Of a stretch of DNA of 40,279 nucleotides, positions 8,377 through 14,610 are shown piece after piece. Origin of the DNA: an uncultured Oscillospiraceae bacterium (GTDB lineage: Bacteria > Bacillota > Clostridia > Oscillospirales > Oscillospiraceae). The notes under the pieces were generated by a model. The model ran no database searches, was not told where the DNA came from, and saw only the letters and a program-made list of their open reading frames with translations. Position 1 is the stretch's first letter; each line of letters begins with the position of its first letter. Made by a program: the position numbers and the translations under genes. The stretch spans positions 1 through 40,279 of the forward strand of contig CATNCS010000016.1 in NCBI GenBank assembly GCA_950097245.1, read 5' to 3'.

Positions 8377-8437
8377 GTGGGAGGATTGAGGTCCCGCGTC
8401 GGCGGGCCGCCAACAAGTGTGCAAAAGAAGGGATGTT

Positions 8438-9244
8438 ATGAAGCAACACAAAAAAGCTCTGGCAGTATGGATCGGGGCGACGCTGGTCCTGTTGGCCGGG
8501 GCGCTGCTGGCCGGATCGCCAGGGCGGTCAGAGAGTGTTCAGGAGGCCATGCGGGACGCGGTTCTGCACAACGTCAACCAGATTGACCTCCTGGGGTTGA
8601 AGGCGGTAAATCCCGGCTTGATTTCCGCCTTTCTGGTGACGGCGGCGCTGCTGCTGGCCGCTGCTGTCATACGGGTTCTGGTAATTCCGCGTTTCCGGTA
8701 TAAGCCGGGAAAATTTCAGCTGGTGCTGGAGGAGGCTGTCAGCCTGTTCAGCGGCATGGCCAGGGAGGGGAGCCCCCACCGCTGCGGCTTTTTAGGGGCG
8801 TATATTTTTGCCGCCGGCGCCTTTATCTTTGTGGGGACCCTCTTTGAGCTGCTGGGGATCCAGGCCATTACGGTGCACGGCCACCCCATCACCCTGCCCG
8901 CCCCCCTGTCTGACGTGAACGCCGCCATCGCCATGGGCACCCTGTCCTACCTGGTCATCCTCTCGGGCGGCATTGCCGGCAACGGCGTGAAGGGAATCGG
9001 CAAAACGCTGAAGGAGTTCTCACTGCCCATCTCCATGAGCTTCCGTCTGTTCGGCGCGCTGCTCAGCGGCCTTCTGGTGACGGAGCTGGTGTATTACTAC
9101 ATCACGTTAAGTTTTATTCTTCCGGTGATTGTCGGGGTGCTGTTTACGCTGCTCCATGCCCTGATTCAGACCTACGTGCTTACCATGCTGGTTTCTATGT
9201 ATTACGGCGAGGTGTCTGAGCCGTCACATAAAAAGAAGCATTGA
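8438..9244 (+). CDS. atpB: F0F1 ATP synthase subunit a
   Basis: 268 residues from the ATG at 8438, with an AGAAGGGA ribosome binding site. The membrane stator subunit forms the two ion half-channels against the c-ring. The essential arginine is present as R203 in SMSFRLFGALLSG, and Q244 in the last helix (ALIQTYVLTMLVSMYY) matches the conserved Gln of the family. PLSDVNAAIAMGTLSYL (about residues 156-172) is the standard helix-4 motif. The first 25 residues form an extra N-terminal hydrophobic helix. First gene of atpB-E-F-(delta'-alpha)-G-D-C. Confidence 0.95.
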   Translation: MKQHKKALAVWIGATLVLLAGALLAGSPGRSESVQEAMRDAVLHNVNQIDLLGLKAVNPGLISAFLVTAALLLAAAVIRVLVIPRFRYKPGKFQLVLEEAVSLFSGMAREGSPHRCGFLGAYIFAAGAFIFVGTLFELLGIQAITVHGHPITLPAPLSDVNAAIAMGTLSYLVILSGGIAGNGVKGIGKTLKEFSLPISMSFRLFGALLSGLLVTELVYYYITLSFILPVIVGVLFTLLHALIQTYVLTMLVSMYYGEVSEPSHKKKH

Positions 9245-9283
9245 GATTCCATAAAACAACTAATCAATTTGGAGGGTTCACCT

Positions 9284-9646
9284 ATGAACAGGCTGTTGAA
9301 AAGAACATTTTTCTTTGGATTGGTACTGATGCTGTCTCTGGCCCTGGCGGTTCCCGCCTTTGCCGACGAGGCGTCCGCCTCAGAGGGGGAGACCGCCGTT
9401 TCTGAGGCGGGGGAGGACAACACCGTGGGCCTGAAGGCCATCGCTGTGGCTCTGGCCATCGGCATCGCCGCCGGCGGCGGCGGAATTGGCATGGGACTGG
9501 CCACCGCCAAGTCGGCGGAGGGCATCTCCCGCCAGCCCGAGGCGGAGGGCAAGATCCGGACTATGATGATGCTGGGTCTGGTCTTCATTGAAACGGCCAT
9601 CATCTACGCGCTGCTGGTGGTCATTCTGATTATCTTCGTGTTGTAA
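9284..9646 (+). CDS. atpE: F0F1 ATP synthase subunit c, with N-terminal signal-like extension
   Basis: 120 residues from the ATG at 9284, with GGAGGG eight bases upstream; typical c subunits are 70-90. The first 27 residues (positive start, hydrophobic core, VPAFA then D28) look like a cleavable signal peptide. A short acidic segment and the two-helix hairpin (about 48-120) follow, with the polar loop RQPEAEGK. The ion-carrying carboxylate is E103 in FIETAIIYAL. The position of the Na+-coordinating Gln of Ilyobacter-type rings is M70 here, while the Glu-Thr and downstream Tyr are kept. I therefore favour proton coupling, with caution. The in-frame extension to 9269 lacks ribosome binding site support. 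Confidence 0.93.
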   Translation: MNRLLKRTFFFGLVLMLSLALAVPAFADEASASEGETAVSEAGEDNTVGLKAIAVALAIGIAAGGGGIGMGLATAKSAEGISRQPEAEGKIRTMMMLGLVFIETAIIYALLVVILIIFVL

Positions 9647-9661
9647 GGCAGGTGGTACACA

Positions 9662-10144
9662 ATGCCTTTGAATATTGATTTGCAGCAGATTTTACTGCAC
9701 TGGATGAATCTGGCTATCCTCACCGGCGGACTGTACTTTCTGCTGTACAAGCCGGTGAAGGCGTTTATGGTCAAGCGGGAGGAGTATTACCGCAAGCTGG
9801 ACGAGGAGGCTGCCGCCAGGCTGGCGGAGGCGGAGCGGATCAAGGCGGAGTGCCAGGCCAAGCTGGACGAGGCCGATGAGGAGATCCGCCAGGAGCGGGT
9901 TCGCGCCCAGCAGTCCATTCAGCAGTCCACCGAGGACCAGCTGGCTCAGGCGAAGGAGCAGGCCCGGCAGATTGTGGCCCACGCCCAGACCGAGGCGGAG
10001 CACAGCCGGGAGAGAGCGCTCCGGGAGTCTCAGCGGGAGTTGCGGAAGCTGGCCGCCCAGGCTACCCGGAAGCTGGCCTTCCATGCTGATCCCTTCGACC
10101 AGTTCTTAGACCTGGCGGAGGAGGGGGAAGAGTATGAGGAGTGA
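9662..10144 (+). CDS. atpF: F0F1 ATP synthase subunit b
   Basis: 160 residues, a normal length for a bacterial b subunit. One N-terminal membrane helix (LHWMNLAILTGGLYFLLYKPV, residues about 12-32) is followed by a long charged amphipathic helix for the dimeric peripheral stalk (residues about 35-140, rich in E, A, R, Q). The C-terminal tail is short and acidic, without a delta domain, so this is not the b-delta fusion known from mycobacteria. It starts 15 bp after atpE. Its end overlaps the start of the delta'-alpha gene by 11 bases, indicating coupled translation. Confidence 0.93.
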   Translation: MPLNIDLQQILLHWMNLAILTGGLYFLLYKPVKAFMVKREEYYRKLDEEAAARLAEAERIKAECQAKLDEADEEIRQERVRAQQSIQQSTEDQLAQAKEQARQIVAHAQTEAEHSRERALRESQRELRKLAAQATRKLAFHADPFDQFLDLAEEGEEYEE

Positions 10145-11894
10145 CAGAAGCCGCCTGACTGCGGAGCTGCGCAGCGCCAAAGAGCCCTCTACAGAGCAGA
10201 AGCAGCGCTTTGCCGACTTCCTGTCCAAGAAATACAGGCGCAAGGTTCCCCTGCGCTGGGAGCAGGATGACTCTCTGAAGTCCGGCTTCCGCCTTCAGGT
10301 GGGCTCCGACGTCTACGACTGGAGTCTGGACGGACGAATCCGCCAGTTCCAGGACTATCTCCGCCAGCTTCAGCCGGGACAGCAGGACCTGATGCCCCTG
10401 ATGCGCCAGGCCGTGGAGGACTGGTCCCTGGCTGTGGTGCCTGAGGAGATCGGAACAGTGCTCACTGTGGACAGCGAGATTGCCACGGTGGGGGGGCTGG
10501 AGCACGCCCAGTACGGCGAGATTCTGCTGTTTACCGGCGGAATCCGGGGCATGGTCCAGGACCTGCGCCGGGGGGAGCTGAGCTGTGTCGTCTTTGGCGA
10601 CGCGGAGGAAATCAGTGCGGGCAGCATTGTCCGCCGTACCAAGAAGACCGCAGGCGTGCCGGTGGGCGAGGGCTTTCTGGGCCGGGTGGTGGATGCCCTG
10701 GGCGTCCCCATCGACGGCAAGGGCCGCATCCAGGCGGAGGGCCGCCGGCCCATTGAGGCCCCGGCCCCCGGTATTCTGGACCGCCAGCCCGTCAATACCC
10801 CTATGGAGACCGGCCTGCTGGCCATCGACTCCATGTTTCCCATCGGCCGGGGCCAGCGTGAGCTGATTATCGGCGACCGTCAGACGGGCAAAACCGCCAT
10901 CGCGCTGGACACCATCCTGAACCAGAAGGGGAAGGACGTGGTGTGCATCTATGTGGCTATCGGCCAGAAGACCAGCTCCATCGCTCAGATGGTGGAAAAT
11001 CTGTCCCGGCGGGGAGCTATGGATTATACAACGGTCATCAGCGCTCCGGCGGGAGCGTCGGCCGCTCTGCAGTACATCGCCCCCTACGCCGGCTGCGCCC
11101 TGGGGGAGTACTTTATGTACCAGGGCCGGGATGTGCTTATCATCTACGACGACCTCAGCAAGCACGCGGTGGCCTACCGGGCGCTGTCTCTGCTCATGGG
11201 CCGGTCTCCCGGCCGCGAGGCCTACCCCGGCGACGTGTTCTACCTCCACTCCCGGCTGCTGGAGCGGGCCGCCCACCTCAGCGACGAGCTGGGGGGCGGC
11301 AGCATGACCGCCCTGCCCATCGCCGAGACCCAGGCGGGGGACGTGTCCGCCTATATTCCCACCAACATCATCTCCATCACCGACGGGCAGATCTTTCTGG
11401 AGAGCGATCTGTTCTTCTCCGGCCAGCGGCCCGCCGTCAATGTGGGCCTGTCCGTCTCCCGTGTGGGGGGCGACGCCCAGACCAAGGCCATGAAGAAGGC
11501 GGCGGGCACCCTCCGCCTGGAGCTGGCCCAGTACCGGGAGATGGAGGTCTTTACCCAGTTCTCCAGCGACCTGGACGAGGCCACCAAACGCCAGCTGGTC
11601 TACGGCCAGGGCCTGATGCGGCTGCTGCGCCAGCCCCAGTACCATCCCCTGGCTCAGCACCAGCAGGTGATCCTGCTGGTCAGCGCCCTGGGCCATGTGA
11701 TGCAGGATGTTCCCCTGGACGATATCGACCGCTTTGAGGACGGCCTGCTGGCCGCTATTGAGGAGCAGGTCCCGGACCTGTGCCGGCGGATCGACATGAC
11801 CGGCCAGCTGGAGCCGGAGGACCGGGAGGAGATTGTGGAGCTGGCGAAGGAGTTCCTGGAGGACTTCCAGTCCGGCGGAAAGCGCGGTGGCTGA
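10134..11894 (+). CDS. atpA: ATP synthase alpha subunit fused at its N terminus to the C-terminal domain of subunit delta
   Basis: 586 residues; normal alpha is about 500. Residues about 1-78 match the C-terminal domain of delta (OSCP). LSKKYRRKVPLRWEQDDSL, then GFRLQVGSDVYDWSLDGRI and a final helix, align with the delta pattern of a KKV-L strand, a conserved D-S, G-hydrophobic-G, and D-S-GR. The roughly 100-residue N-terminal helical domain of delta is missing, and no separate atpH lies in the operon. Alpha proper begins near residue 85 and is intact: Walker A GDRQTGKT (247-254), a VGLSVSRVGG arginine-finger segment and a full C-terminal domain. The start overlaps atpF by 11 bases; no frameshift is involved. 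An in-frame ATG at 10392 (codon 87) would give a 500-residue normal alpha. Confidence 0.93.
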   Translation: MRSDRSRLTAELRSAKEPSTEQKQRFADFLSKKYRRKVPLRWEQDDSLKSGFRLQVGSDVYDWSLDGRIRQFQDYLRQLQPGQQDLMPLMRQAVEDWSLAVVPEEIGTVLTVDSEIATVGGLEHAQYGEILLFTGGIRGMVQDLRRGELSCVVFGDAEEISAGSIVRRTKKTAGVPVGEGFLGRVVDALGVPIDGKGRIQAEGRRPIEAPAPGILDRQPVNTPMETGLLAIDSMFPIGRGQRELIIGDRQTGKTAIALDTILNQKGKDVVCIYVAIGQKTSSIAQMVENLSRRGAMDYTTVISAPAGASAALQYIAPYAGCALGEYFMYQGRDVLIIYDDLSKHAVAYRALSLLMGRSPGREAYPGDVFYLHSRLLERAAHLSDELGGGSMTALPIAETQAGDVSAYIPTNIISITDGQIFLESDLFFSGQRPAVNVGLSVSRVGGDAQTKAMKKAAGTLRLELAQYREMEVFTQFSSDLDEATKRQLVYGQGLMRLLRQPQYHPLAQHQQVILLVSALGHVMQDVPLDDIDRFEDGLLAAIEEQVPDLCRRIDMTGQLEPEDREEIVELAKEFLEDFQSGGKRGG

Positions 11895-11895
11895 G

Positions 11896-14196
<2,301 letters not shown>

Positions 14197-14197
<1 letters not shown>

Positions 14198-14610
14198 TGG
14201 ATACCTTTCAGGTGCATATCCTTGCCGCGGACAAGACCTTTTATGAGGGCCCCTGCGTCAGCCTGACCATCCCCACCAGCGACGGGGAGCAGGGCATTCT
14301 GGCCCACCACAGCAGCATGATCGCCGCTGTCCAGCCCGGCACCCTGCGCTACCAGGCGCCGGGGGAGGAGACCAGGCTGGCCGCCGTCTCGCCGGGGATG
14401 GTGAAGGTGGAGGACGACGACGTGCTGGTGCTGGTGGACTCCGCCGAGCGGCCGGAGGAGATCGACGTGGTTCGGGCCCAGCGGGAGATTGAGGAGGCCC
14501 GGGAGGCGCTGCTGCAGAAGCGGAGCCGCCAGGAGCACCAGATCGCCCAGGCCACCATGGCCCGGGCCCTGAACCGCCTGCGGGTGAAAAACATGGGCAT
14601 CGGACGGTAA
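14197..14610 (+). CDS. atpC: F0F1 ATP synthase epsilon subunit
   Basis: 137 residues. N-terminal beta-sandwich (about 1-85) with the family motifs DGEQGILAHHSSMIAAVQPG and VSPGMVKVEDDDVLVLVDSAE, then a two-helix C-terminal domain (about 88-137) rich in E, R and Q. Binds gamma and the c-ring and, in the family, can inhibit ATP hydrolysis. The ATG overlaps the last base of the atpD stop codon. Last ATP synthase gene of the operon; a DUF2971 gene follows 15 bp later. Confidence 0.94.

Follow-up and report, generated by a model that had tools for sequence, protein, structure and literature searches.

A predicted natural fusion of the ATP synthase delta C-terminal domain to subunit alpha in an uncultured Oscillospiraceae bacterium and its relatives

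The window, a stretch of 40,279 nucleotides from the genome of an uncultured Oscillospiraceae bacterium, includes an F-type ATP synthase operon in which the C-terminal domain (CTD) of subunit delta is encoded at the 5' end of the alpha gene and the N-terminal domain of delta is missing. As judged by sequence comparisons, this gene is a natural delta-deltaN-alpha fusion in an operon that is otherwise complete. The initial annotation of the DNA had proposed the same interpretation and was right in its core. It was wrong on the novelty of the arrangement, which it took to be undescribed: Ueno et al. (Nat Commun 2025, PMC12229609) engineered it and, in the main text, briefly name natural examples, hence the kind is already in print.

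The fusion gene (10134 to 11894, forward strand) has an ATG start in the list of open reading frames and encodes 586 amino acids. In a Pfam search with the full protein, positions 97–171 of the 172-position OSCP model matched residues 2–75 (E 1.4e-10; 41.9 bits against a cut-off of 22.3), which bears out the assignment of residues 1–78 to the delta CTD. Alpha is complete behind the delta part, with the domains ATP-synt_ab_N at residues 104–169, ATP-synt_ab at 227–442 and ATP-synt_ab_C at 449–574. In the DNA, the delta CTD occupies 10134 to 10361 (OSCP positions 96–172 in the genome search, E 1.7e-11), alpha occupies 10392 to 11894, and the junction between the CTD and the N-terminal helix of alpha, at 10362 to 10391, is about 10 residues long, which is also the median of 89 delta CTD-alpha loci.

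The other genes of the operon lie on the same strand. Upstream are atpB for subunit a (8417 to 9244; Pfam ATP-synt_A, E 3.5e-16), with an N-terminal hydrophobic extension and a possible start at ATG 8438; atpE for subunit c (9269 to 9646; ATP-synt_C at residues 58–121), with a signal-peptide-like N-terminus of about 55 residues that includes a hydrophobic segment; and atpF for subunit b (9662 to 10144; ATP-synt_B, E 1.2e-13). Downstream are atpG for gamma (11896 to 12786; ATP-synt, E 1.3e-85), whose ATG at 11896 lies within a listed frame of 11833 to 12786, atpD for beta (12794 to 14197; ATP-synt_ab, E 2e-72), and atpC for epsilon with its C-terminal helical domain (14197 to 14610; ATP-synt_DE_N and ATP-synt_DE). 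The order is a-c-b-[delta CTD-alpha]-gamma-beta-epsilon, and the remaining F-type subunits are all present in this one operon. As atpF ends at 10144, inside the fusion gene (an overlap of 11 bases), there is no space for atpH or a delta N-terminal domain between atpF and atpA. Subunit b, of 160 amino acids, has its own gene, and the fusion protein includes no b match.

The genome is a draft of 108 contigs that is 95.6% complete. A search of the whole draft found no OSCP match other than the fusion at E <= 0.001 or at E <= 10, and the same search detected the family at E <= 0.001 in 9 of 14 control genomes, including E. coli and B. subtilis. Thus, the earlier claim that the delta N-terminal domain is gone stood at the genome level, no other delta being detectable. 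The fused CTD was likewise the only good OSCP match in eight genomes reached through related loci, for which completeness is not given, and in three single-contig genomes (G358, G311 and G451), all of the same layout; next-best matches were present in 4 of these 11 genomes at E 0.075 or worse, and another delta match was absent from the three single-contig genomes.

The delta domain appears functional from its sequence. In an alignment of 33 fusion proteins, comprising that of the window and those of 32 of 36 related loci (L040, L046, L047 and L055 were left out), invariant positions of the delta part include G51, F52, Y61, D62, W63, G67, R70 and Q71. In comparisons with 13 of the 36 loci, dN/dS was 0.05–0.36 for the delta part and 0.08–0.27 for alpha, with the delta part above alpha in 6 of the 13 pairs. 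The values for the delta part indicate that the domain is maintained by selection.

The search of related genomes for the same fused gene, which had been proposed as a check, gave these 36 loci in other genomes. All of them have the fusion, three being broken inside alpha by contig ends. Records without a MAG label include those of Flintibacter muris DSM 110149 (a culture-collection strain; locus L034), Colidextribacter sp. OB.20, Acutalibacter sp. 1XD8-33 and Neglectibacter sp. X58. In overlapping samples of genomes from the family, order, class and phylum, OSCP matches were found in 85 of 150, 65 of 147, 95 of 148 and 130 of 149, respectively. In the family sample, alpha was above the TIGR00962 cut-off in 82 of the 150 genomes; 79 of these and four with weaker matches were classified with local profiles, giving 83 genomes. 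Three further genomes, G069, G118 and G146, lie outside the 83; in each of them a full-length delta of the ordinary kind has a gene of its own.

Delta without a detectable N-terminal domain was present in 44 of the 83 classified genomes. It is fused to alpha in 38 of these, including 10 in which a b-type segment (b') precedes it in a b'-delta CTD-alpha chain, and is not fused to alpha in six; in five of the 44 an ordinary operon is present as well. Only full-length delta was found in 38 of the 83, in 28 of them as a separate gene only, and in one genome the locus ends at a contig edge. Over the order, class and family together, delta CTD-alpha occurs in 18 family codes, a separate delta CTD in 10 and b'-delta CTD-alpha in four, and the order and class loci, mostly chosen for an odd layout, give no proportions. 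Full delta-alpha fusions that retain the N-terminal domain were labelled at 14 loci, one of which (L138) is really b'-delta CTD-alpha. A delta CTD as a separate gene beside a separate alpha was found at 15 loci, with open frames of 74–161 amino acids (12 of 15 below 100). Labels were corrected by hand for L138 and for L025 and L188 (to separate full delta), and that of L160 is doubtful. An OSCP match (positions 116–170) in G001 was dropped, as an ATP synthase is absent around it (L122, classified as 'none').

Several further layouts were observed. L082 (G015) has a tandem pair of delta CTDs fused to alpha. In L131 (G276), a single frame of 261 amino acids encodes a full delta and, behind it, another delta CTD, with alpha separate. 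The single-contig genome G098 has two operon copies (L106 and L115), each with a 76-aa delta CTD gene; alpha is split into two frames in one copy, and the next OSCP match in this genome has E 0.16. The signal-peptide-like N-terminus of subunit c was seen in 39 of 61 delta CTD-alpha operons, 2 of 13 with a separate delta CTD, and none of 35 with a separate full delta, 13 with a full delta-alpha fusion and 14 with b' fusions. An N-terminal extension of subunit a accompanies it in 37 of the 39 operons, which form one clade and are therefore not independent cases.

In the lineage of the window, whole delta was most likely fused to alpha first and the N-terminal domain lost later, more than once, because the CTD fusions nest among full fusions in the sequence tree and a one-clade origin was rejected. 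The tree of this lineage has 55 rows and was built under a mixture model, with three ordinary rows as the root. In it, the delta CTD-alpha rows are nested in a grade of full delta-alpha fusions; one unfused row (L185) lies in that clade, and several forks have support below 80. A single clade for the 31 CTD rows, a group defined before this tree and after the larger tree was known, was rejected with p-AU 0.018.

The larger tree, of alpha plus beta, has 145 rows (129 with beta). The window's own locus (L001), 26 of the 36 loci L032–L067, one-operon duplicates and alpha fragments of less than 300 residues were dropped beforehand, and the deepest part is unsure owing to the long rows L182, L169, L170 and L173. 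This tree requires at least 7 changes in the state of the N-terminal domain and at least 12 in fusion to alpha, counts that cannot separate gain from loss. Outside the lineage of the window, the N-terminal domain is absent also where there is no fusion to alpha. An analysis of independent pairs for association between loss and fusion yielded too small a number of informative pairs (median p 0.5); in pairs whose members differed, loss accompanied fusion. The proposal that the fusion replaces precisely the part that was lost thus stood in so far as fusion preceded loss in the lineage of the window, but replacement is not the whole reason, since at 15 loci the domain is undetectable without fusion.

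Gradual N-terminal erosion in full delta-alpha fusions was considered because the model match starts at positions 28–34 in several of them; it is not claimed, as most keep these residues in diverged form. One single-contig genome with the genus code of the window (G128) has a full delta-alpha fusion (L075) on a distant branch, and the position of this branch suggests exchange of operons between lineages.

The main text of Ueno et al. (PMC12229609) states that every ATP synthase so far contains a single a subunit, and argues that the delta N-terminal domain allows just one stalk because it occupies the threefold axis of the head. In FoF1 of Bacillus PS3, those authors deleted this domain and fused the delta CTD to alpha. 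The engineered enzyme has at most three stalks and three a subunits, with an SDS-PAGE average of about two stalks, and cryo-EM revealed 0, 1, 2 and 3 stalks in 15, 51, 26 and 8% of particles, respectively. Its H+/ATP ratio is 5.8, as compared with 3.0, and the equilibrium pmf is approximately halved. As described there, exactly the same layout was built; hence the idea that the covalent link takes over the delta-alpha contact agrees with the published enzyme, and the stoichiometry problem foreseen for three stalk-binding domains is real, with up to three stalks as the answer given in that paper.

PDB entry 9jc1 was taken to be the engineered delta-deltaN-alpha enzyme from the name of chain I (delta plus alpha) and its length. 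Residues 14–569 of the window protein are collinear with residues 10–570 of this chain. The alignment has three gaps: a single residue within the domain, 3 residues at the junction and a single residue close to the C-terminus. This alignment is the strongest single piece of sequence evidence on how the natural protein is likely to be built.

By analogy with the engineered enzyme, each delta CTD would dock a b2 dimer, and alpha would thus be tied covalently to the stalk, so that the N-terminal domain on top of the head would not be needed. With the threefold axis vacant, more than one of the three sites may be occupied, every such site having a b2 and an a subunit to itself, and several a/b2 sets would raise the ion/ATP ratio and permit function at a low ion-motive force. 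Docking to b2 through the delta CTD is considered very likely, and the chances that the enzyme carries more than one stalk appear about even. The explanation as a whole, that is a natural delta-deltaN-alpha enzyme with CTD docking, more than one stalk and a raised ion/ATP ratio, is judged on this analogy to be somewhat probable.

The strongest competing explanation, possible but rather doubtful, is that the enzyme has a single stalk: one CTD could bind b2 with the other two idle, the N-terminal domain having been lost once it was redundant. The existence of full delta-alpha fusions makes idle copies plausible, as these tolerate three copies of a domain for which there is one place, and the loss came after the fusion in the lineage of the window. 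The engineered enzyme as reported also counts against several stalks, having mostly one (51% of particles) or none (15%). Codon usage, taken as a proxy for added synthesis of a and b over that of gamma, revealed no difference (p 0.34 and 0.49), which fits a single stalk as well; in the b'-delta CTD-alpha group (13 operons), the a-minus-gamma score was +0.015 against about –0.07, a difference noticed post hoc and not counted. On the other side, the 15 unfused loci that also have no detectable N-terminal domain indicate that redundancy through fusion is not the whole story, and the extra sites do fill in the engineered enzyme, to about two stalks on average by the biochemical measure given by Ueno et al.

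An enzyme of mixed subunits, in which an internal start or proteolysis yields ordinary alpha too (for example, one fused and two plain copies), is improbable. Start codons with a Shine-Dalgarno-like (SD) stretch around the alpha junction were scored at an energy of <= –4 in sets that include close relatives and some double loci. Such starts occur in 36% of 89 delta CTD-alpha fusions, 36% of 14 full fusions and 25% of 16 b' fusions, as compared with 42% of 1080 interior alpha windows and 98.6% of 72 separate alphas. A lineage-wide internal start at the alpha junction was therefore not found in the 89 fusions, which are not above the interior control and far below true starts, and for this reason all three alphas probably carry the delta CTD, as far as the gene sequences tell.

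Near the window, the signals are less one-sided, and some plain alpha might be made there. The junction of the window has in-frame ATGs at 10392 and 10401, each with an SD energy of –4.0. Met90 is conserved in 30 of the 33 aligned proteins and its ATG has an energy of <= –4 in 18 of 34 cases, against 43% of 494 interior ATGs; the energy is –6.6 to –8.0 in L033–L038, near relatives of the window. Against this, the energy is –2.8 or weaker in the other 16 of the 34 (above 0 in 15 of them), and Met occupies position 87 in no more than 6 of the 33 proteins. The fused gamma-beta frames offer a contrast, as they retain clear internal beta start signals. These frames, at L100, L104, L149, L152 and L179, encode gamma and beta in 767–797 amino acids with the gamma stop absent, and L081 has the same layout with a frame break in beta. 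In each, the internal beta start codon has a Shine-Dalgarno-like stretch, the signals being judged by eye. A rotor-stator fusion is possible in these operons, and one gamma-beta plus two beta subunits per enzyme is conceivable.

An assembly or sequencing error that joined or cut genes, for which only the draft state of the genome (108 contigs) speaks, is refuted by independent assemblies, namely the 36 loci of other genomes, including non-MAG records such as that of Flintibacter muris DSM 110149, and single-contig G358, G311 and G451 with the layout and no other delta match, and can be dismissed.

The b'-delta CTD-alpha single chain was found at 17 loci (L068–L070, L072, L086, L091, L112, L116–L118, L133, L134, L136–L138, L140 and L147), each beside a separate b gene, and is 737–815 amino acids long where uncut by contig ends. 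A b-profile match lies within the chain at 9 of the 17 loci; the others were assigned from length and a b-type N-terminal membrane anchor. A start with an energy of <= –5 lies shortly 5' of the delta CTD in 8 of the 17, a count without a matched control, and a shorter product may also be made from these genes. If translated in full, this chain would give each alpha a stalk half of its own, with three stalks as the expected result.

A broader proposal is made tentatively, its chances being put somewhat short of even: many anaerobic Clostridia and relatives may possess natural ATP synthases with several stalks. The delta N-terminal domain, which restricts the enzyme to one stalk, would have been lost repeatedly along separate routes, leading to delta CTD-alpha, to b'-delta CTD-alpha or to a free delta CTD. 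Such enzymes could have as many as three stalks and three a subunits and could make ATP when the ion-motive force is about half or a third of its usual value; in the b' enzymes, three stalks would be built in. Taken as a series, the full and the truncated fusions, the free CTDs and the b' fusions are a natural record of losing a symmetry-breaking stator part. The layout is frequent among the sampled genomes of the family and present in a named strain from a culture collection, and the structure of an engineered counterpart has been solved.

The ion/ATP ratio of ATP synthases is set by the c-ring. If the natural enzyme has two or three a subunits, these would be a second, independent way to set it. 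Two RnfC genes are above the family cut-off in the genome of the window, G000 (the search for Rnf covered RnfC only). This genome further encodes a V/A-type ATPase, with genes for subunits A, B and D in an operon, and an ATPase of the flagellar/type III type; the loci recorded for these are on contigs C2 (60000–72000; L129) and C36 (19000–24432; L128). For a fermenter that depends on a small gradient driven by Rnf, a high ion/ATP ratio would be well suited. By analogy with the engineered enzyme, gut bacteria with the fusion may make ATP at a weaker membrane voltage than ordinary enzymes need; if true, this could explain ATP synthesis at low voltage by Rnf-bearing gut fermenters.

A search of the open-access literature found no work on natural cases beyond Ueno et al. 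(PMC12229609), who give Acidaminococcus fermentans as a natural fusion without the N-terminal domain, report similar features for UniProt G4Q3K6 and A0A1I2C5T3, and regard a multi-stalk structure in these cases as 'highly likely'. By that description, delta and alpha are fused and the N-terminal domain is missing as in the window. The organisms are different, and phylogeny, intermediates and b' fusions are absent from the main text. Measured against that text and the literature search, the spread over many families and the order of fusion before loss are apparently new, as are the free delta CTD genes and the b'-delta CTD-alpha single chain.

The window protein is like that of the engineered PS3 enzyme in having the delta CTD at the N-terminus of alpha, the N-terminal domain removed and a separate b gene. 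It differs in that it is natural, its junction is 3 residues shorter, epsilon retains the C-terminal domain that was removed in the engineered enzyme, and subunits a and c have N-terminal extensions. The initial annotation had also set the gene apart from N-type ATPases and from mycobacterial b-delta fusions, and both distinctions stand. In published descriptions, the N-type ATPase is without a delta gene and its operon begins with beta-epsilon, followed by a-c-b-alpha-gamma; the operon of the window has another order and keeps a delta domain. The b-delta fusion of Gordonia and some Mycobacterium, as described in PMC5709465, is similar to that of the window in that delta is fused to a neighbouring stator subunit. 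There the partner is b, and in the window b and delta are not one chain. In the fusion of Gordonia and some Mycobacterium, delta retains its N-terminal domain. The b'-delta CTD-alpha chain in relatives of the window combines the b-delta and delta-alpha types of fusion.
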